Of a DNA stretch of 64,000 bases, positions 10,467 through 63,609 are shown piece by piece (the first letter of the stretch is position 1; every line of letters starts with the position of its first letter). The notes beneath the pieces are model-generated. The model searched no databases, had not been told where the DNA came from, and saw nothing but the letters and a program-made list of their open reading frames with translations. The DNA is from Bacteroidota bacterium (GTDB taxonomy: Bacteria; Bacteroidota; Bacteroidia; Chitinophagales; Saprospiraceae). The DNA is taken from assembly GCA_029572935.1 (NCBI GenBank), contig JAKQHM010000040.1, positions 1 to 64,000 of the forward strand, read 5' to 3'. The translations under genes and the position numbers were made by a program.

Positions 10467-12761
10467 TCAGAAAATGAAAGGTTTGGATGAGCTGTAACCT
10501 TCAGACTGGATGGTCATATAATACACCCCGTTACAAATTTCAGGCATTTGCCATTCGAACCTTTGTTTTTCGGAAGATTTGTTTAATCTCTGAGTTTGGA
10601 GGGTTCTTCCTTCAGCATCCGTTACTCTTGCGGTGAATTCACCCGTGAATCCGGATTGCATGGTCAGGATCAACATACCGGCAGATTCTGAGGCCCATAC
10701 GGACCAAAGAGAGGCAGCAGATTCATCACGCGTATTGATCGGCCCCTGAAATTCGTAGGCCCCTACATCCGGAATTGCATCCCGGTTTTTACCCAACAGG
10801 TCAACTTTCGGTGCATCGGGAGAAGCAAGGCCTTTGTTGATACACGGACTGCCGGAAGTTAGCTGGTAGTTATCGGAACCTGTATCGACAAATAAGGCAT
10901 CCTTACCTTTCTGATCGCTGGATTGGCTTAAAGCAGTAGAATTGTCGAGGGCCAGGTTGCCACCTAAACTTTCAAATTCCGGATTGCCCGCTTCCACATC
11001 CAGGGAATTGTTGCCTGGATGGTGCAGGATGTTGTTCAAAAGCTGCACTTTGGTTGGGGTCATATCATCGTTGAAGAGGGATATACCTGAACCTACAGGA
11101 CCCTCATTCAACGCAAGGGTATTATTGACCATTTTTACATTGGTGTTGTCTCCGTTGACGCAGTTGATTGAAAATGCGCCTCCGGCACCGGTTCCTTCGA
11201 TGATGAAGTTGTTGATGAAGAGGTTATTTGTGATGAGGCCATCTGCGTTTTGCATGTTTACGGCACCGCCCTGCATGGTGGCAGAATTAAAATTGAATCT
11301 GCTTTGGCTGAGGGTCAAAAGGGCCCGGTCCAGTGTATCTTCGCTGATGTTCAGGGCTCCGCCGATATTGGCTGTATTCCCTTCAAAAATGGATTTCAGG
11401 ATGGTAGTCCTTATTCCGGCGTTAGTGCTCATGGCGCCTCCGCTCGAGGTAGCCTGATTGGAGTTGAATTCACAATCTGAAAAATATACTTCTGTGGTGT
11501 CGTTTTGTGCGAAACAGGCTCCTCCAAACCGAGCGGTATTGCCATCGAATATGGAGTTTGTAATCCGGCAATTCGTCCTGAATCCATTGGAAATGGCGCC
11601 GCCCGAAGTACCTGCAGTGTTGCCTTCAAAAACGCAACGGTCGTATTCCACTTTCAGGAAAGTTGAAGGATTGGTGCTGCTGTTGTAGTTGGTTATGGCG
11701 CCTCCGAATGCAGCAGAATTACCTGTAAACATACAATCGGAGAATTTGGTCGTAGCGCCCACTCCGGCCACATGCACGGCACCGCCTGAATTGGTTGCCC
11801 GGTTGTTGGTAAAATTACAACCCTTTATTTCTGCATTGCTGGAAACCACAAAAAGGGCTCCGCCACGGATACCCGAAGTACCTGAGACGATATTACCCAG
11901 GAAGTCCACATTTTCCAGAATGGCCGTGGATTCAGTGATGTACACGGCTCCACCGGCATTTGTATTCCCGGTCATTTCATTGTCCGAAAACATCGAATTG
12001 GTCAGGCTGATGGGTGATTGCTGCATATAGACGGCGGATCCGGAAAGAGTGGATTTGTTGAACTCAAAACGACAATTATCAATGGTTCCTCCGCGGGGTG
12101 TCAGAATGTACATGGCTCCGCCCAGATCGCCGATGTTTCCGGAAAACCTGCAATTCGTCAGATTAAAACCGGAATTCGTACCTCTGGGATAAAAAGCGCC
12201 CCCGAAATAGCCATAATTATGCCTGAATATGCAGTTGTTAATATCGATGGTGCCGTAGGCCAAAATTCCGCCTCCCCTTCTGTTGTCATTCAGACCGGTC
12301 TGACCTTCTGTATTACCTCCTGATATCGTGAATCCGTCCAGCGCTGCCCCGATGACATCAGCAGGAACCTGGATCACGTGCAAGGCATTGTCGAAGCGAT
12401 TGATTTTGGGATCTGCCAGATCATCGTCACCAGCCAGGTCTCCACTCAGGATGGTCACATTGGTTTGGGGATTGCGCTGGTTTTTGTTGGTTTCTGTGCC
12501 ATCAAATCCACCTAAAAGTGTGACTCCGCTGACAAGAATAAAAGAACTGTCCTTTTGAGAGGGTTTATAAACCCCTTTTGCGACCCAGATTTCGTCCCCG
12601 GTAAAGGATGCAGTCAGTGCCCGTTGTATGGTGGTAAACGCATTGGCCCAACTTGAACCGTTGTTGGAGCCTGTAGCTGAAGCATTGACGTAATAGACCG
12701 TTTGTGCCTGGATGCCTGCCGTCAGGTATATAAACATCAGGAGCGCAAGTGCTTTATTCAT
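10467..12761 (-). CDS. Secreted right-handed beta-helix protein with T9SS-type C-terminus
   Basis: This is a 764-residue exported protein. A signal peptide (MNKALALLMFIYLTAGIQAQ) is followed by a short pectate-lyase-like opening (YYVNASATGSNNGSSWANAFTTIQ). About 20 degenerate repeats of the type FxxNxAxxGGAI follow, as in polymorphic-membrane-protein-like beta-helices. The final ~85 residues form a sorting-domain-like sandwich ending GVYYMTIQSEGYSSSKPFIF. The usual ExxPNP opening is missing, so type IX export is probable but not certain. It likely acts at the cell surface or is released; no catalytic residues are evident. It is not overlapped by neighbours and lies 155 bases upstream of glyS on the same strand. 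Confidence 0.85.
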   Translation of the reverse strand: MNKALALLMFIYLTAGIQAQTVYYVNASATGSNNGSSWANAFTTIQRALTASFTGDEIWVAKGVYKPSQKDSSFILVSGVTLLGGFDGTETNKNQRNPQTNVTILSGDLAGDDDLADPKINRFDNALHVIQVPADVIGAALDGFTISGGNTEGQTGLNDNRRGGGILAYGTIDINNCIFRHNYGYFGGAFYPRGTNSGFNLTNCRFSGNIGDLGGAMYILTPRGGTIDNCRFEFNKSTLSGSAVYMQQSPISLTNSMFSDNEMTGNTNAGGAVYITESTAILENVDFLGNIVSGTSGIRGGALFVVSSNAEIKGCNFTNNRATNSGGAVHVAGVGATTKFSDCMFTGNSAAFGGAITNYNSSTNPSTFLKVEYDRCVFEGNTAGTSGGAISNGFRTNCRITNSIFDGNTARFGGACFAQNDTTEVYFSDCEFNSNQATSSGGAMSTNAGIRTTILKSIFEGNTANIGGALNISEDTLDRALLTLSQSRFNFNSATMQGGAVNMQNADGLITNNLFINNFIIEGTGAGGAFSINCVNGDNTNVKMVNNTLALNEGPVGSGISLFNDDMTPTKVQLLNNILHHPGNNSLDVEAGNPEFESLGGNLALDNSTALSQSSDQKGKDALFVDTGSDNYQLTSGSPCINKGLASPDAPKVDLLGKNRDAIPDVGAYEFQGPINTRDESAASLWSVWASESAGMLILTMQSGFTGEFTARVTDAEGRTLQTQRLNKSSEKQRFEWQMPEICNGVYYMTIQSEGYSSSKPFIF

Positions 12762-13055
12762 GTTGTTGATTTTTAATAACCGTTAATAAGTCTGTGCGAA
12801 GATATAGTTTTGGGCACAACCAGGCAAATTTCTGCGAGACCTGATTGAATTTTAAGGATTTGGGTGAATCCGTCCGATGTGGCATGAGTGTCTGTGACAG
12901 ATTCAGCTTCAAACATTTACCCATACCTTGGATCCCAATAAAAATTTGCTCAAAATCTATGAGCTATCGCTGAATGAGCTTGACAAAAATAAAACCCCGA
13001 CCCTGGTTTTTGCGGTTTGTTGGATTCTTTTGTTCAAATACTTGAAAACCCGGGA
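12762..13055. other. Intergenic region without a supported gene
   Basis: This ~290-base gap separates two minus-strand genes. A short plus-strand frame begins at 12928 but is largely antisense to the lipoprotein gene and lacks any family resemblance. I see no tRNA, strong hairpin or perfect -7 element. TATCTTCG on the minus strand near 12801, one mismatch from the -7 consensus, may drive the beta-helix gene. Confidence 0.4.
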
Positions 13056-13397
13056 TCACTTCAGCCGAAGGAAGCTGTTTTTATTTGACTCGTCAAATAA
13101 CTGCAGTGAATCGCCCTCAAAAAGAACGATCTTGTATCCATAACGAAAAGTTGGAAAATCTATGATCAGGCTATCCCGGGCAATGGTGACCGGAAATGAT
13201 TTGGGCGGTTCTTCCTGCAGAAAGACGATGCTGTCGGAACCTAGTCTGAAATCAGGTACCTTGCTGTTGAAATTTTGCCAGGTACCTGCCATAGAGTGGG
13301 TGTTCGCTTCGATCACCACAGGATGTAAAGATTTTTTATCTTCCTTACAGGAAAGGACCCCCAAAACAAGTCCCGATAATATCCATAAAGCTTTCAT
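13056..13397 (-). CDS. Small lipoprotein, function unknown
   Basis: This 113-residue product has a short lipoprotein signal ending in the lipobox VLSC (Cys17). The mature part looks like a small beta-rich domain (GTWQNFNSKVPDFRLGSDSIVFL... SLQLFDESNKNSFLRLK). This resembles the lipocalin-like small periplasmic proteins common in Bacteroidota, but I cannot assign a family. It is divergent from the thioredoxin-TPR gene. Confidence 0.65.
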   Translation of the reverse strand: MKALWILSGLVLGVLSCKEDKKSLHPVVIEANTHSMAGTWQNFNSKVPDFRLGSDSIVFLQEEPPKSFPVTIARDSLIIDFPTFRYGYKIVLFEGDSLQLFDESNKNSFLRLK

Positions 13398-56037: not shown

Positions 56038-56358
56038 ATGAATCTTTACGTAGGTAACCTTGATTACTCAATCAGGGAACAACAGATCGCCGATCTTTTT
56101 TCTGAGTACGGCGAAGTAGCGTCTGTGAAAATCATCACGGACAAAATGACCGGTCGCTCAAAAGGTTTTGCCTTTGTGGACATGCCAAATGACGACGAGG
56201 CCCGGGAAGCGATCAGCAACCTGGACCAGGCTTCTGTCAGGGACAGGAACATTTCTGTTTCTGAGGCAAGACCTCCAGAGCAGAGAGAGAGAAAACCATT
56301 CCGCCCAAATAACTTTGGAGGCGGCGGTGGTGGTGGAAACAGGTTCAGAAGAAACTGA
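56038..56358 (+). CDS. RNA-recognition-motif RNA-binding protein
   Basis: This 106-residue protein has one RRM with RNP2 (LYVGNL, residues 2-7) and RNP1 (KGFAFVDM, residues 42-49), followed by a basic, glycine-rich tail (PFRPNNFGGGGGGGNRFRRN). It is the type found in many Bacteroidota and cyanobacteria, often linked to cold or general RNA metabolism. It has its own promoter and terminator, with a helicase gene downstream on the same strand. Confidence 0.95.
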   Translation: MNLYVGNLDYSIREQQIADLFSEYGEVASVKIITDKMTGRSKGFAFVDMPNDDEAREAISNLDQASVRDRNISVSEARPPEQRERKPFRPNNFGGGGGGGNRFRRN

Positions 56359-56459
56359 TTTCCGTCTGCTCTGAATCTTTTGACCGCCAGTTTGGTTGAT
56401 CCTGCGTAAAAGTTGCGTATGTCTGCCATCAAAAAGCTTTAAAAGATTTATAGGGATGA

Positions 56460-56498
56460 AGACCTGCCGTTCAGAGGCGGCAGGTCTCTTTTTTTTTC
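56460..56498 (+). terminator. Strong rho-independent terminator of the RRM gene
   Basis: AGACCTGCCG and CGGCAGGTCT form a perfect 10-bp stem (8-base loop, 56460-56487) followed by a run of T to 56498. Confidence 0.92.
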
Positions 56499-56624
56499 GG
56501 GGATCCCCCCGGCCTCTGCGCTTCTCGATCAGTTTTTTTTACGGGTCTTCGGACCGGTTGATAAAGTGGGTGCTGGTCAATGAAGTGGAATGAAAACTCA
56601 TTTGTCATTGATCAAACAAAAAAC

Positions 56625-58316
56625 ATGAATCCATTTTCAGCCTTAGGACTGGATCCTGCCATTTGCAGGGCCATCGAAGAACTCGGTTTTGAGAACCCTA
56701 CCGACATTCAGCTCAAAGCCATTCCCCTCTTTTTATCACAGGCATCAGACCTGATCGCCCTTGCCCAAACCGGTACGGGTAAAACTGCAGCATTTGGTCT
56801 CCCCATACTGCAAAATATAGAGCCGGACGTCCGCACGACGCAGGCACTCATTATTTCTCCAACCCGCGAACTCTGCATGCAGATCGCATCCGATCTCAAG
56901 AAATTTTCCAAACATCTGCCTCCTGTCGGAATCGTGGCTGTGTACGGAGGCAGTAGCATCACTGCCCAGATCCGTGAGATACGCCATTCTTCTCAGATCA
57001 TTGTCGCTACACCAGGCCGACTGATCGACCTCATCGAAAGAAAGGTGATCAAGTTGCAGGATGTGAGTACAGTGGTACTCGATGAAGCAGATGAAATGCT
57101 CAATATGGGATTCCGCGAGGATATGGAAAGAATTCTGGCAGAAACCCCGGAAGAAAAAATAACCGGACTTTTCTCTGCCACCATGTCGCCTGATATCAGG
57201 CGGATCGCCGCTACCTACCTGAAGGATCCTGTGGAGGTGACCATTGGAAAAAAGAATACTGCGCAGCAAAACATAAGTCACCAGTATTCTGTAGTTCAGG
57301 CAAAAGATAAATATACAGCGCTCAAGAGGATCATCGATTTTCATGAAGACTTCTATGGAATCGTTTTTTGCACTACAAAGGCGGAGACACAGGAGCTTTC
57401 GGATCATTTAGTTAGGGATGGATATTCTGCAGACTGTCTGCACGGAGATCTGGCACAGGCCCAAAGAGATAAAGTGATGCACCGTTTTCGCCACAAGGCC
57501 ATCAAGGCCCTTCTGGCTACTGACGTGGCAGCCCGAGGCATCGACGTAAAAAATATCAGCCACATTATTCATTACCATTTGCCGGATGATATCGAGAACT
57601 ATACCCACCGAAGTGGCAGAACCGCCAGAGCCGGGCAGAAGGGTGTATCAATTGCCTTATTGCATATTCGGGAAGCATACAAACTTCACCAGATAGAGAA
57701 ACTGGCTGGAGTCAAATTTGAGAGATATCTCATCCCCAACGGGGAGCAGGTTATACAAGCCCGCATCAAGAATTTCATCGAAGCATTCAAGGCAGACAGC
57801 GATGATGATGCCAAATTAAAAAGATTCAAGAATGAATGGATCTGGCCGCTCATGGAGCTGGATAAGGAAGTCATCGTGCAAAAGTTGATTGAATCTGAAC
57901 TGAAAAGAATGGGTATCAATTATACCGATGCACCTGATATCAATGTGGATGAAACCGCCCGCGGCAGTGCAGGAAGAGGAGAGAAAAGCAGGGGAGGATC
58001 CTGGGAAGGAGGAAAACCCGGCAAAGGTGGACGCAGTGGCAAGTCAGGCGGCAGCGGAAAGATGGTGCGGCTATTTATCAATGTAGGTAAAAAAGACGGG
58101 CTCAAGTACGATGAGATCCGCGAGATGATCTACAAGCACACCAAAGTGAGCGGCCGTGCCGTAAAAGATATCGAAATGAAAGGCGTATATTCATTTTTTA
58201 TTGCCGATCACGACTCAGCCGATCAGATGCGAAAAATCAAGAATGCCAGCTTTAACGGCAGACCTCTTCGCATCGACCTGGCATCTGAGCAAAAAGAAGG
58301 AAAGTATAATTCATAA
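56625..58316 (+). CDS. DEAD-box RNA helicase with DbpA-like RNA-binding C-terminus
   Basis: The ATP-dependent RNA helicase starts at 56625 (MNPFSALGLDPAICRAIEELGF), the usual Q-motif position; the frame extends to 56580. Core motifs: AQTGTGKT (I), PTRELCMQIA (Ia), TPGR, VLDEADEML (II), SAT (III), and HRSGRTARAGQ (VI). The C-terminus has an RG-rich linker (GRGEKSRGGSWEGGKPGKGG) and an RRM-like DbpA domain (VRLFINVGKKDGLKYDEIREMI). This suggests a role in ribosome assembly or cold adaptation. Its 563 residues are typical of CsdA/DbpA-like helicases. Confidence 0.95.
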   Translation: MNPFSALGLDPAICRAIEELGFENPTDIQLKAIPLFLSQASDLIALAQTGTGKTAAFGLPILQNIEPDVRTTQALIISPTRELCMQIASDLKKFSKHLPPVGIVAVYGGSSITAQIREIRHSSQIIVATPGRLIDLIERKVIKLQDVSTVVLDEADEMLNMGFREDMERILAETPEEKITGLFSATMSPDIRRIAATYLKDPVEVTIGKKNTAQQNISHQYSVVQAKDKYTALKRIIDFHEDFYGIVFCTTKAETQELSDHLVRDGYSADCLHGDLAQAQRDKVMHRFRHKAIKALLATDVAARGIDVKNISHIIHYHLPDDIENYTHRSGRTARAGQKGVSIALLHIREAYKLHQIEKLAGVKFERYLIPNGEQVIQARIKNFIEAFKADSDDDAKLKRFKNEWIWPLMELDKEVIVQKLIESELKRMGINYTDAPDINVDETARGSAGRGEKSRGGSWEGGKPGKGGRSGKSGGSGKMVRLFINVGKKDGLKYDEIREMIYKHTKVSGRAVKDIEMKGVYSFFIADHDSADQMRKIKNASFNGRPLRIDLASEQKEGKYNS

Positions 58317-58390: not shown

Positions 58391-59794
58391 TTATTCTCTG
58401 GCCAGAGATCCCATCGCATAGGATACGCCATAAGCTGAGACGGCTGATTTTGCCTGGAGATAAAGCAATTTTTGTCTTGACTCAAGGTATTTGTTTTCTC
58501 TTTGGTTGATCAGGAACAGACTGCTTTCGCCGGTAGAAAATCGCTCCAGTTCCGCAGCATACAATTGGCGGTAATTTTCTGTAGCTTCGGTCTGAATGTT
58601 TACCTGTACTGCGAATTGGGCTGCGTCATTGTGATACTTTCGTATTTCGTTGCGCAATCCAGCGTTGAGGATATCCATTTCCAGTTTTTGTTCCCTGATC
58701 TTGATTTTGGCTCTGTTGTATTCGCCTCTTCCCTGTCTGAAGAAAAGAGGGATCTGCAGATCGATTCCCAGCTTAAAATTATCCTGAGGAAAAACCTGCG
58801 CCGGAAACAATCTCTGATCGGCCGATAAGCTTTGAAAACCCAGGTCTGCAGTAGGCAGAAGCATTTGAAATTTAAGGCGCTTTTCGAGGTCCAGAGATTT
58901 GAGTTTGATGCCGGCCTGTTTCCATTTGGGATGCAGTACAGCCTGATCCAGGCATTGTGTCAGACTGAGCAACACAGGCAGGTTCACTTCATTTTCAGGA
59001 GGGGAAACCCGCTCGGGAATATCGTAGTAATTTCCATTTTCGAGCCAAAGGAAATTGCTGAGTTCAAATCTGGCCTCCAAAAGTTTTTGCTCAGCCTCTA
59101 TCTGAATAATTTGATATTGTTGCCATTGACTCAATGCCTCCACCGTGTCGATGGCGGGCCTCTCCCCCAGAAAGAATCCCGAGCGAACCATTTCAAATCT
59201 CAACCGGTTTGCAGTCGCCAGACTGTCAGCCAGTTTTTTTTGCTCCACCCATAGTTTCCAATCGTAATACGCTTTAATCCCGGCAAACAAGGTCTGGTTT
59301 CTCATGGAAATCCTTTCCTCATTCGAAAAGAGTACCATCTGTTTGGCCTGTTGTACGGCATTTCTTCTTTTATCGTATGCAAGTCCCTGGAGTAAAGGCA
59401 TTTTCAGGCCCAGGTATTGGGATCTGCCCGGGGTCAGTTCCGGAAAAATTCTTTCTCCATCATTTTGAGCCAGACCTGCCTGAAAATCCAAGCCATACCA
59501 GGTGGGAATTTTCAGGTTTGCACCGGAATACCGGAAATACTCCTTTTGATCAAATTGTTTTTCATCCAGAGACATCTGTAGGGCAGGGTCAAAACCTCCA
59601 CGTGCCGCCTTAAGGCTTTCAAGGGAGGATTCGTATTGCAGGTCGGACTGTCGGAACACCGGATGATAGGCCCTGACCACACTGATAAATTCATCAATGC
59701 TGAGGGTATTTGGATCAGGCGAATTGTCTTGTCCGAAGGCAAGCTGGCAGACAAGGAATGCGAAAAAAAAATGGAAGATTTTATTACTTCGCAT
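58391..59794 (-). CDS. TolC-family outer-membrane channel
   Basis: This 467-residue exported protein (signal MRSNKIFHFFFAFLVCQLAFGQ) has the long helical coiled-coil layout of TolC/OEP channels, with two repeated halves. The helical regions include ...LKAARGGFDPALQMSL and ...FKLGIDLQIPLFFRQGRGEYNRAKIKIREQKLEM. It is the outer-membrane exit duct of the export system. Its start overlaps the HlyD gene by 11 bases, and it is the last gene of the operon. Confidence 0.9.
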   Translation of the reverse strand: MRSNKIFHFFFAFLVCQLAFGQDNSPDPNTLSIDEFISVVRAYHPVFRQSDLQYESSLESLKAARGGFDPALQMSLDEKQFDQKEYFRYSGANLKIPTWYGLDFQAGLAQNDGERIFPELTPGRSQYLGLKMPLLQGLAYDKRRNAVQQAKQMVLFSNEERISMRNQTLFAGIKAYYDWKLWVEQKKLADSLATANRLRFEMVRSGFFLGERPAIDTVEALSQWQQYQIIQIEAEQKLLEARFELSNFLWLENGNYYDIPERVSPPENEVNLPVLLSLTQCLDQAVLHPKWKQAGIKLKSLDLEKRLKFQMLLPTADLGFQSLSADQRLFPAQVFPQDNFKLGIDLQIPLFFRQGRGEYNRAKIKIREQKLEMDILNAGLRNEIRKYHNDAAQFAVQVNIQTEATENYRQLYAAELERFSTGESSLFLINQRENKYLESRQKLLYLQAKSAVSAYGVSYAMGSLARE

Positions 59795-61130
59795 CCTTTT
59801 GCATTTTAGGGGTTATCTCCTGATAAAATTCAGGTGGGAAGCCATTGATTCTTCTCCATATTTCGTAGATCAATGGGACATCATTAAGCAGAGTGATCGT
59901 CGAAGCACCCGTCCCCATGCGAAGTGAAGGTGGCCAGGGTTTGTCTTCTGGATCCTGGGTCACCAGTATCCTGAAGAGGCCATTCTGAGTTACATTATTC
60001 TCTACCGCGACGATCTTGCCGGTAAAGGTACCAAAGGATTGTTCAGGCCAGCCACTGAAGATAATTGCCGGATAACCATCGAAAATGATGCGGACCTCCT
60101 GGCCCTGTGCCACCAGAGGCTGGTCGACGGGTCTGATAAACATTTCCAAAGCCGGGTCTGCACCCATGGGCACGATTTGCAGAAGTTTATCGCCTTCTTT
60201 GATGATTTCACCGATGCCGGATTTTTGAATGTCCATCACCTGACCGTCTTGCGGTGCGAGTATGGTGTACATATCGTTTCTGATATCGTATGAAGTACGA
60301 AGGTTTTTGAGTTTGGCTATATCGGCCTCTGTATTGGATATCTGGGAGAGCGTCTGAAACCGGTCTCCTTCAATTTTGGATAGTTTCTCTGCATACTCCT
60401 GGGTGGTAGCCCCCAACTCAATGTTGAGGTTTGCCAAGTCCTGTTTGGTGTTGGCATATTTGATCTCAAATGATGTTCTCTTGGCGCTGGCGGACTGGAA
60501 AGCCTGATTTCTTTGTTCCAGTTGTGTCAGAGAAACGAGGCCTTTGTCAAACAGCCCTTTTTGTCTTTCAAACTGGAGAGTGGCAATGTTGTAATCATTG
60601 GTTGCAGCCACCAGGTCCATACTGTCCGCGGTCAATTTTGCCTCCGTCTGACGGATCTTGTTTTTAATCTGTCGGATCTTTAGGTCCAGGGACATTTTCA
60701 AGGCATTGTATTGGGCTCCCAGTGTACTGACTTTGCCGGTGTAATTGTCGTTGGCCTGTATCTTGGCCAAAATTTGTTCCTGCGTTCGCAGGATCAGTTC
60801 CGGGTCCAGGTATTCCATTTTAATTTCCTGAAGCTGGACCAAAGTGTCTCCTTTTTTAACATTTTGACCTTCTCTGACGTACCAGTTGATCACTTTGCCG
60901 GAAATGGCGGAGTTGACTTCCTGAGGCCTGTCCTTTTGCTGAAGGGAAGTGACACGGGCTTTGCTGTTGATATTTTGCGTCCAGGGGGTTAAGGAAGCAA
61001 TGATCAGAAAAAGGATCGAAGCAATCCACCAGGGTCTGATTTTTTCAACGTGTTCGTTGCGATAAATCATCCTGGAGGATTTGGGAAGCACACTTAGGTT
61101 TTTAAAAATCTGATTTGCACTCATGCTCAT
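59784..61130 (-). CDS. HlyD-family membrane fusion protein
   Basis: This 448-residue periplasmic adaptor has one N-terminal transmembrane helix (IRPWWIASILFLIIASLTPW, about residues 30-50). A lipoyl/barrel half (ISGKVINWYVREGQNVKKGDTLVQLQEI) is followed by a long coiled-coil hairpin (about residues 130-285). The closing half shows YTILAPQDGQVMDIQKSGIGEIIKEGDKL. It links the inner-membrane ABC protein to TolC. It overlaps both neighbours by 4-11 bases. Confidence 0.93.
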   Translation of the reverse strand: MSMSANQIFKNLSVLPKSSRMIYRNEHVEKIRPWWIASILFLIIASLTPWTQNINSKARVTSLQQKDRPQEVNSAISGKVINWYVREGQNVKKGDTLVQLQEIKMEYLDPELILRTQEQILAKIQANDNYTGKVSTLGAQYNALKMSLDLKIRQIKNKIRQTEAKLTADSMDLVAATNDYNIATLQFERQKGLFDKGLVSLTQLEQRNQAFQSASAKRTSFEIKYANTKQDLANLNIELGATTQEYAEKLSKIEGDRFQTLSQISNTEADIAKLKNLRTSYDIRNDMYTILAPQDGQVMDIQKSGIGEIIKEGDKLLQIVPMGADPALEMFIRPVDQPLVAQGQEVRIIFDGYPAIIFSGWPEQSFGTFTGKIVAVENNVTQNGLFRILVTQDPEDKPWPPSLRMGTGASTITLLNDVPLIYEIWRRINGFPPEFYQEITPKMQKDAK

Positions 61131-62776
61131 TGCAATTTAGAAGAGTCCGGGAGCAAAATGGTTTTGTCAAAAAGAGATTCAGCCAGAGGATGCCAACCTG
61201 CAATGATCAGGGTGGTGGGAAGCTTCTTAAGGTATGAAACCAGATTTACAATATGCTCATCTGACAAATCCCGGAAGGGGTCATCCAGCATCAGCAATTG
61301 GCCAGGATGCAGTAAAGTTCGGAGCAAAATGATTTTTCGGATGGTATGGGCAGGTAATTTGATTCCCCTGGTAAACAAGACCGTATCGAAACCCATGGGC
61401 AGGTTTTGTATGACATCGTGGAATCCCAGGATTTCGACAAGTTGCATCACCTGATTCATGCCCAGATCTTTTCTGCCTACGGCAATATTGTCCCAGAGTG
61501 TTCCGGCGAAGATCTCGGGTGTACCGATCATGTAGCTCATCCTGTCCCTAAATTCTGTCAGGCCAAAGTGGGAGATGGGAAAATGGTCAATATAAATCTC
61601 TCCCCGGGTTGGCTTGTGGCTGCCCGATATGAGTTTTAACACTGTGCTGGCTCCTGCTCCTGACACTTTTCCGAAGATGCACAGTCTGCTTCCGGAATTT
61701 AAACTAAAATTCAGATCCTTCAGAACCGAGTTGTACTCCTGATAGTGGAATGACACATTCTTAAATTCAACACTAAGTGGATTGGAATGTCCGATCACAA
61801 TACCTTCCTGCCTTTCAATCGGCTTGAGTAAAAGATGGTTCATTTTTTCAATGGCAGTGAGTACGTCAAACACCACGTCGATACCCAGGATGAGTTTTTC
61901 TACTGAGCCCATAATGATGAAGATCACGATCTCGGCAGCCACAAACTGACCAATGTTGATGAGCTGCATGTCGAGGAGTACCGCCCCTATGACCAGAAAG
62001 GATGCGATGAGAAGTACCTTGAATACCACCATCGTCCAATATTGGGTTTGCAGAATTCTGAAGTGTTTGGTCCTGAATTTAAGGTAGCCCTGAGTATGGT
62101 CATCCGTCAGACTGTAGTGAAGTCCCGCCTTGTAGCGGTTTTTAAAAGTGCTGAGGTTTCTGCTGATTTCCTGAAGCCATCCCGCCACTTTGTATTTATA
62201 ACTGCATTCCTCGATACTGGTCATGAGTCCCTGCTGGGAAGTTAACCTCAGAATGGTGTAGGCTATCACCATAAGGAGTAAAGCAATGACCAGAAAGACT
62301 ACGTGGTAGAGGGACAACAGGATGATCCCAAATAAAATCTGGACCGTCGCGCCCGGCACGTCCAGAAGAAGTTTGACCACTCCTTTCTGAAGATTGATCG
62401 TTTCGAAAAATCGGTTGGTGAGTTCGGGCAAATAATTTCCATCCGTGCTTTTCAATTCTACCTTAGGCAAATGATTGGCCATCATGGAAGTATTGCGGAC
62501 AAATATTCTTTGCTGGATGGTCTCGGTTATCTGAAGCTGTCGGATTTGCAACCAACCGGTCAACAATACTCCCAGCATAACGGCAGCCACCAGGACATAC
62601 ACAGTAGTGGCCAGCGTGTTGAAGGTCATGAAATTGATGATCGCCTGAATCCCGAGGGGTAAACTTAATTGGATAAGACCCGCCATCACCGCAAAGAAAT
62701 ACAGAGCCACCAGCTCCTTGTTCTCCAAGCTGAGGTAGGCCCATAATCGAAAAAACGGGTTTTGATTTTGAGACAT
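61127..62776 (-). CDS. ABC exporter (permease fused to a degenerate ATPase domain)
   Basis: The 549-residue protein has the type I secretion layout: about six transmembrane segments (residues 20-300), then an ABC-like domain (340-549). No C39 peptidase domain is present. The nucleotide-binding motifs are all abnormal. Walker A reads GKVSGAGAST with Ala376 where the lysine should be. Gly418 stands at the Q-loop glutamine (MIGTPEIF). The signature is LPAHT instead of LSGGQ (about residue 474). Walker B ends LLMLDD with Asp499 for the catalytic glutamate. Reading frame and length are intact, so this is not a simple pseudogene. Transport energy, partners and substrate are unknown. Confidence 0.85.
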   Translation of the reverse strand: MSQNQNPFFRLWAYLSLENKELVALYFFAVMAGLIQLSLPLGIQAIINFMTFNTLATTVYVLVAAVMLGVLLTGWLQIRQLQITETIQQRIFVRNTSMMANHLPKVELKSTDGNYLPELTNRFFETINLQKGVVKLLLDVPGATVQILFGIILLSLYHVVFLVIALLLMVIAYTILRLTSQQGLMTSIEECSYKYKVAGWLQEISRNLSTFKNRYKAGLHYSLTDDHTQGYLKFRTKHFRILQTQYWTMVVFKVLLIASFLVIGAVLLDMQLINIGQFVAAEIVIFIIMGSVEKLILGIDVVFDVLTAIEKMNHLLLKPIERQEGIVIGHSNPLSVEFKNVSFHYQEYNSVLKDLNFSLNSGSRLCIFGKVSGAGASTVLKLISGSHKPTRGEIYIDHFPISHFGLTEFRDRMSYMIGTPEIFAGTLWDNIAVGRKDLGMNQVMQLVEILGFHDVIQNLPMGFDTVLFTRGIKLPAHTIRKIILLRTLLHPGQLLMLDDPFRDLSDEHIVNLVSYLKKLPTTLIIAGWHPLAESLFDKTILLPDSSKLQ

Positions 62777-62848
62777 AGACGCGAAAATTAGCTAATTAAT
62801 CCATAATACACCCTAATTGTTGAGCATACTATCATTTAAATTTGTTAA

Positions 62849-62867
62849 ACTATTATTAAAGTATAGT
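62849..62867. promoter_or_regulatory. Possible TetR operator (ACTAT-N9-ATAGT)
   Basis: A 19-base inverted repeat with 7 of 9 paired positions lies in the 140-bp gap between the TetR gene and the export operon. It sits 28 bases before the TetR -7 element. TetR-family regulators usually bind such palindromes between divergent genes; binding here is inferred. Confidence 0.4.
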
Positions 62868-62894
62868 AATGCTATTATTTTCATTTTTTTTATT

Positions 62895-62902
62895 TAATTT
62901 TG
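62895..62902 (+). promoter_or_regulatory. -7 element of the TetR gene
   Basis: TAATTTTG matches the consensus and ends 14 bases before the ATG at 62917. It therefore excludes the longer in-frame start at 62869. Confidence 0.55.
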
Positions 62903-62916
62903 CGTTTCGTTCATCC

Positions 62917-63609
62917 ATGGAGATCAAGCTTTCTTTTCGCGTCAATCCCAAACTTTACCTTAAGGATCCCGAGAGTTCCGAGTTGGGTGGTCAGATTCTG
63001 GCCAAGTCCATCGATATGATCCATCAAATTGGATTTGAGCATTTTACATTCAAGAAACTCGCCACGGAAATCCAAACAACAGAAGCCACGGTCTACCGCT
63101 ATTTTGAAAACAAGCACAAATTGCTGTTGTATGCTTTAAACTGGTATTGGGGTTATCTGGAATTTTATCTCGAGTACCGCATCAGCCCAATGGCCGATCC
63201 TGCTGGTAAAATCAGGGAAGTGATACGGGTATTGACGGGTGAGGTCGGATTTGATCTGGTAAAAGCCCCGTTCGATCTAAAGGTCCTGAATGCCATCGTC
63301 ATTTCCGAAAGCAGCAAGGTCTATCTGCTCAAAGAAGTGTCAGAGATCAATAAGGTCCAGCTATACAAGCCCTACAAAGACCTGTGTGCCATGATCTCCT
63401 CCATCGTCACCGAATACAATGGTCAATATCCCTTCCCCAAGAGCCTTGCCAGTACTTTGGTGGAAACCGCCCATACCCAGCAGTATTTCGCTCAAAACCT
63501 GAAGGGACTGACCAATGTGCAGGACCAGATTCCTGAGGTCTACACCCGAGCATTTCTGGAAAACATGGTGTTCAGTATCCTCAATCCCCAGACCGGTTCT
63601 TCTATCTGA
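62917..63609 (+). CDS. TetR/AcrR-family transcriptional regulator
   Basis: This 230-residue regulator starts at 62917 (MEIKLSFRVNPKLYL), downstream of its -7 element. The DNA-binding helix-turn-helix is clear: SIDMIHQIGFEHFTFKKLATEIQTTEATVYRYFENKHKLLLYALNWYW (about residues 28-76). The C-terminal ligand domain is helical and unlike any I can name. It diverges from the ABC/HlyD/TolC operon and probably represses it in response to an exported compound; that is inference from layout. Confidence 0.9.
   Translation: MEIKLSFRVNPKLYLKDPESSELGGQILAKSIDMIHQIGFEHFTFKKLATEIQTTEATVYRYFENKHKLLLYALNWYWGYLEFYLEYRISPMADPAGKIREVIRVLTGEVGFDLVKAPFDLKVLNAIVISESSKVYLLKEVSEINKVQLYKPYKDLCAMISSIVTEYNGQYPFPKSLASTLVETAHTQQYFAQNLKGLTNVQDQIPEVYTRAFLENMVFSILNPQTGSSI

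Follow-up and report, generated by a model that had tools for sequence, protein, structure and literature searches.

The window analysed here, 64,000 nucleotides of contig JAKQHM010000040.1 from a Bacteroidota bacterium, carries an export operon on its minus strand. The first gene encodes an ABC-type half exporter of 549 aa, composed of a membrane domain and a degenerate NBD (61,127–62,776 (−); ORF list, profiles and relatives). Its stop overlaps by 4 nt (ATGA) the start of the gene for an HlyD-type periplasmic adaptor of 448 aa (59,784–61,130 (−); ORF list, Pfam HlyD_3), which in turn overlaps by 11 nt the gene for a TolC-type outer-membrane channel of 467 aa (58,391–59,794 (−); ORF list, Pfam OEP). 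A TetR-type regulator is encoded divergently (62,869–63,609 (+); ORF list, Pfam TetR_N), its start probably being the ATG at 62,917 rather than 62,869, and the gene layout suggests that the intergenic region (62,777–62,916) holds the promoter and operator. ORFs and Pfam matches bear out what a sequence-only reading of this DNA had proposed, a normal operon of ABC, HlyD and TolC genes that contains no second ABC gene and is flanked by a divergent TetR gene.

The same ABC-HlyD-TolC order was found in 93 of 96 related loci with enough room and in 11 of 11 outer-class loci added later; of the three exceptions, two had no TolC match and one had neither an HlyD nor a TolC match. A TetR-type gene lay within ~3.5 kb upstream in 35 of the 97 relatives with enough upstream DNA.

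NBD motifs in the window protein and its relatives

Active ABC exporters carry Walker A (GxxGxGK[ST]), Walker B with a catalytic Glu, the LSGGQ signature, a Q-loop and an H-loop. The NBD of the window protein (about residues 335–545, 61,142–61,774 (−); Pfam, motif alignment) lacks the Lys, Gln, signature, Glu and His of this set, and the protein is matched by Pfam ABC_tran at 50.9 bits. Ala376 (codon 61,649–61,651 (−)) stands at the Walker A Lys position in a loop, GKVSGAGAST, with one extra residue; the Q-loop position is Gly418, followed by Thr419; LPAHT (474–478) occupies the LSGGQ position; and Walker B reads Asp498-Asp499, so that the Asp is kept and the catalytic Glu gone. Alignment confirmed these four replacements as the sequence-only reading had given them. 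The loss of the H-loop His, with Trp528 at the canonical position and His529 one residue later, was missing from its list. A sequencing error is an unlikely source of the Walker A change, because turning a Lys codon into an Ala codon takes two or more base changes and the additional residue is an in-frame insertion. Nor is the protein a chance ORF, since matches to it, most of them near full length, occur in 140 of the 199 genomes from its taxonomic family, counting the genome it comes from. These relatives are 30–44% identical to it (nearest full-length relative, 43%), and its nearest sister in the tree has weak support (0.47–0.68). Structure prediction for the window protein, with a single distant relative, reached a mean pLDDT of 39, at which Glu282, a residue discussed below, could not be placed.

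The family is widespread. Across 166 of its NBD-bearing members, LSGG was found in none, the H-loop His in 14 and the DE of Walker B in 15, all 15 inside an outer branch of 17 proteins. The Q-loop Gln was present in 6 members, or in 46 when a Gln at the following position is counted too (155–166 NBD-bearing members), with a shifted Gln in 40 of 155. Glu occupied the catalytic position in 20 of 155, 6 of these within DE. The Walker A Lys is kept in 159 of 166 members and in the same-genus homologues of G199 and G202. Judged from the aligned motifs, only the Walker A loss is private to the window copy, the remaining losses being common among relatives; the catalytic motifs are gone in nearly all examined members outside the outer branch, and ATPase damage is seen in nearly all examined members from the window's class of bacteria. 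The earlier view that the degeneracy is ancestral and shared stands for the signature and the H-loop, whereas the K-to-A change is the window's own, and the Lys of the same-genus homologues is half of what the sequence-only reading had named as a sign of recent decay. Its claim that every catalytic motif has been lost is correct for the window copy and too wide for the family, since the outer branch mostly keeps Walker A, DE and His. The signature and H-loop losses are widely shared, and for this reason the idea that a normal ABC exporter has recently begun to decay was rejected as the main account.

In the outer branch, near-LSGGQ forms also occur (e.g. LSTGQ in L269 and L080), and conservation of the NBD is nearly level with that of the membrane domain (0.433/0.494); by their motifs, these NBDs may be active ATPases. 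Twenty outer-class members were found, of which 9 were in the first set and the other 11 were added and scored separately; most of those added keep DE and several have near-LSGGQ. Outer members are not monophyletic in the 195-member tree, so any order of losses at its root is provisional.

With the Walker A Lys kept so widely, most members probably still make use of nucleotide binding. The NBD could bind ATP and gate transport without hydrolysis, or hydrolyse it slowly at a non-canonical site with ED, LPRSI and the shifted Gln. ED replaces DE at Walker B in 84 of 155 members, the signature position shows a recurring L/I/V-P-x-S-I/V pattern (155 members) with LPRSI where LSGGQ is expected, and G392, N430 and R486 are invariant (155/155); these features, the Gln at 418 or 419 and the DE and LSTGQ of the outer branch would all suit such an NBD. 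The account is nevertheless unlikely: it is impossible for a clade that has no NBD, described below, and hardly fits eight sphingomonad proteins that have no Walker A at all, or the copies that lack the Walker A Lys, namely L087, L198 and that of the window.

Public records call several family proteins 'ABC transporter ATP-binding protein', and a working ATPase cannot be assumed for them. No description of the family was found in the literature covered, which was partial and consisted mostly of the beginnings of abstracts. Among wider collections, genome_contigs yielded one canonical relative and viral_contigs none.

Conservation of the membrane domain and deletion of the NBD

The membrane domain (residues 1–320, 61,817–62,776 (−)) is the conserved part of the family, as seen in its TMD profile and in sequence conservation. 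The profile scored at least 351 bits in 193 family frames, at least 338 bits in later outer-branch members and at most 34 in canonical exporters of the same loci. No Pfam model matched the window's membrane part alone, although full-length exporter models, which match the fused membrane domain and NBD, do cover it; PF00664 was above cut-off in 4 of 6 proteins tested, the window membrane part not among them. Identity in the first set (n = 155) was 0.549 in the membrane domain and 0.349 in the NBD, with the NBD more conserved in 0.42% of 11,935 pairs; for the 149 members outside the outer branch the values were 0.563 and 0.353, and the NBD was more conserved in no pair. The MsbA control (30 best-scoring proteins) gave 0.550 and 0.691, with the NBD more conserved in 98.6% of 435 pairs. 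This shows that, at the level of sequence, conservation is inverted relative to MsbA, the membrane domain being kept more strongly than the NBD.

Glu282 in TM6 (IGQFVAAEI; codon 61,931–61,933 (−)) was E in 204 of 206 aligned members, D in one and Q in one (the 195-member alignment plus the 11 added outer-class members). The single Gln is in L269, a member with an almost canonical NBD, and all 27 NBD-less members have E. An acidic residue at this position was absent from five aligned canonical proteins, ComA and the MsbA profile. Glu282 alone is no marker of ion drive, since it also adjoins the possibly active NBDs of the outer branch. Glu85 is replaced by Ala in 8 of 195 members, which are the sphingomonad proteins. 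The sequence is compatible with a passive gated conduit with no energy source of its own, but the charged residues that are invariant in the membrane domain across the family alignment, together with the TetR genes by many loci, would suggest an active pump, and we regard a conduit as highly improbable.

The absence of a stop had been taken as evidence that the gene is kept by selection. For the NBD this is a weak argument: the end of the ABC gene overlaps the beginning of the HlyD gene, and translational coupling could by itself suffice to maintain an open frame. Better arguments come from the strong conservation of the membrane domain and from the clade with a deleted NBD. The window copy could be a decaying gene whose relatives work in an NBD-dependent way. 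Its private Walker A loss, its NBD conservation given that of the TMD (12th lowest of 155), a nearest full-length relative too distant for dN/dS and the coupling to HlyD all fit this, as does the finding that full-length MsbA without the Walker A Lys is inactive in cells (PMC4979069). However, the three operon genes and the TetR gene are intact, the window keeps 70 of 82 conserved TMD columns as well as Glu282 and Arg206, and other lineages kept the operon after losing the Walker A Lys or the NBD altogether, which makes decay of this copy improbable.

The NBD is deleted at 27 loci examined (8 + 19), and the NBD-less members form one clade (support 0.99). All 27 have HlyD and TolC directly downstream, and the family NBD profile found no NBD inside these operons. 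A G660 frame (L140), cut by the contig end, was left out of the count. As the aligned sequences show, the Walker A Lys was lost in four lineages besides this clade, with the operon kept; its state changes at least five times on the tree, and Aureibacter (L231), with Lys present within a broken Walker A, was not scored as a loss.

A dead or NBD-less half might instead obtain an ATPase in trans, by pairing with a canonical half exporter or recruiting a general ABC ATPase subunit. NBD-less members retain most of their coupling-helix regions (62–73 of 82 conserved TMD columns, 8 proteins), and ATPases that could serve are at hand: canonical exporter-sized ABC frames in all 8 NBD-less genomes searched, stand-alone ABC-ATPase-sized frames of 246–332 aa in 5 of the 8 (E 1e-12) and, at the NBD-less locus L142, an ABC ATPase gene ~1.3 kb beyond TolC. 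Against this, no second NBD gene lies between the ABC, HlyD and TolC genes in any of 101 neighbourhoods (one lies further out in 9 of them), no family-type stand-alone NBD was found elsewhere in the 8 genomes (E 1e-12), and the stand-alone frames scored at most 59 bits, compared with up to 110 for full-size exporters. Furthermore, of the 152 NBD-bearing members whose Walker A has Lys or Arg, 148 retain Arg206 (ICL2 region), whereas 20 of the 27 NBD-less members have another residue there, as do L087 and L198. This is expected if NBD contact is lost, although Arg206 is likewise changed in a Riemerella protein that has the Walker A Lys. We judge supply of an ATPase in trans to be unlikely. The alternatives listed in the sequence-only reading, namely another ATPase, another energy source or a conduit, are narrowed but not closed by the lack of a family-type stand-alone NBD in these genomes and by the near-invariant TM6 carboxylate.

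Energy source and known systems

While the motif losses can be read off the sequences, the energy source is something we infer; it may be other than ATP, such as a proton gradient. Our preferred reading is an ABC-fold tripartite (HlyD/TolC) exporter family that, in the window's part of it, has given up ATP hydrolysis by the attached NBD and would work by ion-driven secondary transport, which we regard as an even call. The membrane domain, as a homodimer, would carry out secondary transport: protons taken up by its acidic residues, Glu282 of TM6 foremost, would drive the switch between inward and outward states, and the substrate would be handed on to HlyD and then to TolC. TetR control suggests that this substrate may be a small compound, either toxic or lipophilic. 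Most members may still have an NBD that binds ATP and gates the pump, and in the window copy the NBD would be a scaffold only. In cells, NBD-less MsbA was active and full-length MsbA without its Walker A Lys was not (PMC4979069), so a dead attached NBD might block the window pump. Against full loss, some motif residues are shifted rather than gone (Gln at 419; His529 in the window).

Such pumps could constitute a third energy class of TolC pumps, ABC-fold and ion-driven with HlyD and TolC, beside ATP-driven ABC and ion-driven RND/MFS pumps, a proposal to which we give slightly less than even credence. If it is true, the family preserves steps from primary to secondary transport: DE, His and near-LSGGQ; Walker A only; no Walker A Lys (window); and no NBD. 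The family makes the question of an ATP-free ABC fold directly testable and offers what may be successive stages by which secondary transport evolved from primary.

The best NCBIfam matches of the window protein were to type I secretion ABC proteins (HlyB, PrtD, LssB), at scores below the curated cut-offs (TIGR03375, 147 bits vs 693; TIGR01842, 118 vs 510). Type I secretion systems and the window family have the same HlyD and TolC partners; the known type I secretion ABC proteins have working ATPase motifs. LmrA and MsbA are not known to belong to HlyD/TolC operons, and naturally carry active NBDs. On their own, the membrane domains of both reportedly transport drugs by means of ion gradients: Glu314 in TM6 of LmrA is required for proton-coupled transport (PMC6155054), and MsbA without its NBD shows proton-coupled efflux, wild-type MsbA being more efficient (PMC4979069). 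The two TM6 glutamates differ in their distance from Walker A, LmrA Glu314 lying 74 residues ahead of Lys388 and Glu282 94 residues ahead of the Walker A Lys position. Heterodimeric exporters (BmrCD, MsRv1273c/72c), as far as the accessible descriptions go, have degenerate NBD motifs like the window family but keep one competent site via a partner; no partner half-transporter gene was found in the window operon or between the ABC, HlyD and TolC genes of the 101 neighbourhoods, and in a homodimer both ATP sites would be degenerate.

SbmA/BacA (SLiPT) importers resemble the family in an ABC-exporter-type membrane domain running without an NBD and in conserved glutamates. SbmA uses the proton gradient, has six glutamates in a ladder and consists of an ABC-type TMD that lacks an NBD, and these importers are proposed to derive from full ABC transporters (PMC13316013). 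Glutamates of the SbmA cavity are conserved, and E378 is probably in TM6, as the gate residue Y368 is (PMC13316013). The main text of that paper does not mention HlyD. SbmA/BacA imports peptides and the window family presumably exports; SbmA/BacA is NBD-less, whereas most window-family members still carry a degenerate NBD; and SbmA reportedly has additional TM0 helices and no longer has coupling helices (PMC13316013), whereas the coupling-helix regions are largely kept in the family's NBD-less members. An ABC-type TMD without an NBD is found in the NBD-less clade (27 loci) and not in the window protein, and the SbmA_BacA Pfam model was absent from the hits listed for the window protein, for two proteins of the NBD-less clade and for seven of the sphingomonad proteins. 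YddA, an NBD-bearing, SbmA-like protein that already has part of the glutamate ladder, is comparable to the NBD-bearing members with Glu282, and differs in belonging to another ABC transporter branch, grouped with SbmA (PMC13316013). Evidence on whether the ABC-exporter fold can work in nature without ATP hydrolysis has so far come from the importer SbmA and from LmrA and MsbA in truncated form; to these is added a large natural HlyD/TolC-linked family, most of whose sampled members have lost the ATPase motifs and one clade of which has no NBD at all.

The window operon and its ATPase motifs

The ABC protein gene (61127-62776, reverse strand) is followed on the same strand by the HlyD gene (59784-61130) and the TolC gene (58391-59794), and a TetR gene (62869-63609, forward strand) diverges from this compact operon, in which neighbouring genes share 4 and 11 nt. 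The assembly of this genome is incomplete, at 66.8% and 61 contigs. Adjoining the operon, at 56038-58316, lie a glycine-rich RRM-type RNA-binding protein gene and then a DEAD-box helicase gene, both named from their translations alone. The sequence-only reading had described the ABC protein as devoid of catalytic ATPase motifs, and the residues it named were correct: Ala376 in Walker A, Gly418 in the Q-loop, the signature LPAHT at 474-478 and Asp499 at the Walker B glutamate. Trp528 occupies the place of the H-loop His, next to His529; Walker B Asp498 is retained, and the Walker A loop has one residue more than that of relatives.

Relatives were sampled from best-scoring loci and hand-picked regions rather than at random. 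The first set comprised 164 distinct proteins (155 with an NBD, 8 without, 1 truncated by a contig end), and 11 further proteins, taken from the phylum's outer classes, brought the NBD-bearing total to 166. In profile alignments, on which these counts depend, LSGG was found in none of the 166, a DE Walker B in 15, Glu at the catalytic position in 29, the H-loop His in 14, the Q-loop Gln in 6 (46 when the following position is also counted) and the Walker A Lys in 159. All 15 proteins with DE, and 13 out of 14 with the His, fall among the 17 members from other classes than the window's (the outer branch), which also retain Walker A and in some cases have near-LSGGQ signatures (LSTGQ in L269 and L080); judged by these motifs, they may hydrolyse ATP. 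The other 149 proteins, nearly all from the window's class, include no DE and one His. Most NBD-bearing members thus have a degenerate NBD. ATP gating or slow hydrolysis is a less likely alternative to ion drive here, favoured by the widely kept Walker A Lys.

The idea that relatives share the degeneracy held for the signature, Walker B and H-loop, whose losses are old and common, but failed for Walker A, where loss of the Lys is private to the window's copy. Decay of this copy alone would fit the private change and not the common ones. The Lys is also gone, separately, in two full-length proteins, L087 (from G248) and L198 (from G002), and replaced by Arg in four; a tree joining 195 proteins shows at least five changes in its state, a count that leaves out partial changes and Arg.

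Members L072-L079, L089 and the outer L261-L271 measure ~690-840 aa, with an extra N-terminal stretch of ~150-250 residues that gave no convincing Pfam match in the three scanned (L072, L076, L078). Directly upstream of the ABC gene in L263, L265, L267 (and L079) lies a large gene, with frames of ~950-990 aa and a weak NBD match (36-48 bits).

Deletion of the NBD and reversed conservation

In 27 members the NBD is deleted. These form a single clade (support 0.99), so one old deletion is enough. HlyD and TolC lie directly downstream at all 27 loci (8 found first, then 19), the HlyD match being split over two frames in L240, and a divergent TetR like the window's is present at 10. Two NBD-less loci, read in three frames, showed no visible NBD remnant behind the membrane domain, and HlyD starts immediately. 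The family of genome G764 has matches in 39 of its 101 genomes, 11 of the 39 frames being 334-365 aa long; in that of G787, 76 of 81 match at 79 places, with 22 frames of 334-367 aa and six of 381-424 aa, of which the four fetched are all NBD-less. These short-frame counts include unfetched frames, some of which may be cut by contig ends. Genome G941 holds three operon copies (L240, L241, L250), two NBD-less and one NBD-bearing, and at the NBD-less locus L142 a separate ABC ATPase gene (12507-13364) lies ~1.3 kb past TolC.

An ATPase acting in trans, a general ATPase included, could be an alternative source of energy. When the 8 first-found NBD-less genomes were searched with one family NBD at E 1e-12, the top matches were full-size exporters (583-813 aa); stand-alone frames, 246-332 aa long, scored at most 59 bits.

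Across the first 155 NBD-bearing proteins (11,935 pairs), identity was 54.9% in the membrane domain versus 34.9% in the NBD, which was the more conserved half in 0.42% of pairs. The control, the 30 MsbA-type proteins with the best scores in the same taxonomic family, gave 55.0% and 69.1%, and the NBD led in 98.6% of 435 pairs. Conservation in the family is therefore the reverse of an ordinary exporter's. The 149 proteins outside the outer branch gave 56.3% versus 35.3%, with the NBD ahead in no pair, and the 17 outer proteins 49.4% versus 43.3%, with the NBD ahead in 28.7%, an intermediate state. The window protein shares 43.7% (membrane domain) and 27.1% (NBD) with the rest of the first set.

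Membrane-domain residues and the energy source

The membrane domain is what the family retains. R122, K131 and K194 are invariant across 195 members; D304 and H238 are conserved in 192 and 190 of them, and E85 is matched by E or D in 187 and replaced by Ala in 8. At E282 in TM6 (IGQFVAAEI), 194 of these members have E and one has D; among the 11 later outer members it is E in 10 and Q in one, the sole Q being that of L269, whose NBD ranks among the most canonical. Canonical proteins aligned here (L001, L003, L004 and the 742- and 741-aa proteins of L103 and L105) have no acid, nor does the MsbA profile, and ComA has Asn.

The ICL2 region contains Arg206, which is retained by 148 of the 152 NBD-bearing members whose Walker A has Lys or Arg. 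It is changed in 20 of 27 NBD-less members, in L087 and L198, and in a Riemerella protein despite its Walker A Lys. The pattern may reflect an NBD contact that is usually lost along with the NBD. Since the window protein keeps Arg206, its Walker A loss may be recent, or its NBD may still dock.

Three published precedents show that substrates can be moved by the ABC-exporter fold without ATP. The importer SbmA is driven by protons and has six ladder glutamates and a proposed NBD-bearing ancestor (PMC13316013). LmrA needs TM6 Glu314 for proton-coupled transport, and its membrane domain on its own was judged to be a secondary transporter (PMC6155054). MsbA without its NBD showed proton-coupled efflux (PMC4979069). 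By analogy, we favour the family as ion-driven exporters: an ion gradient would power export, E282 would serve as a key carboxylate, and the substrate would pass to HlyD and then TolC. The motif losses and NBD deletion are direct observations; how export is powered, what E282 does and which substrate moves are what we infer. Ion drive is weakened by the report that full-length MsbA showed no activity in cells when it lacked the Walker A Lys, and that wild type outperformed the NBD-less form (PMC4979069). A passive conduit is an unlikely alternative, since the invariant charged residues of the membrane domain and the TetR genes beside many loci suggest an active pump.

Distribution and comparison with known systems

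Counting the window's own genome, matches occurred in 3 of 9 genomes of the genus (1e-30), 140 of 199 of the taxonomic family (E 1e-40), 197 of 395 of the class (membrane-domain profile, 1e-40) and 62 of 247 of the phylum (family profile, 1e-60). The membrane-domain profile scored at least 351 bits for the family (at least 338 with later outer members added) versus at most 34 for canonical exporters from the same loci. Public annotation calls several members 'ABC transporter ATP-binding protein' and others 'ABC transporter transmembrane domain-containing protein'. In the Riemerella record L230 (NZ_CP081938.1), labelled as a plasmid, the family operon is surrounded by murB, rplU, rpmA and miaA, and the record resembles a chromosome fragment.

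Sphingomonadales are home to a second branch. A tblastn search with a Sphingopyxis plasmid fragment returned 22 plasmid records, 15 from this order. In the eight examined besides the Sphingopyxis one (Novosphingobium, Sphingobium, Sphingomonas and Croceicoccus, including pNL2 of N. aromaticivorans DSM 12444), the three-gene order is identical, the adaptor being annotated 'biotin/lipoyl-binding protein' in one. Walker A is unrecognisable and the TM6 glutamate present in all eight proteins; Pfam ABC_tran exceeded its cut-off in 1 of 7 tested. The Sphingopyxis sp. 113P3 plasmid (NZ_CP009453.1) carries a family member without a listed gene (L252, 5677-7110). An adjoining IS3-family transposase gene overlaps the open frame's end, and the gene looks broken; other sphingomonads have intact relatives.

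Type I secretion uses the same partner genes, HlyD and TolC, but the window's ABC component fails its models (147 of 693 bits) and lacks the catalytic features. The family may work in a similar mode to SbmA but falls outside that group, with no profile match in the proteins tested and with an NBD still attached in most members. These proteins are best classed as tripartite exporters of ABC fold whose ATPase is dead or deleted.
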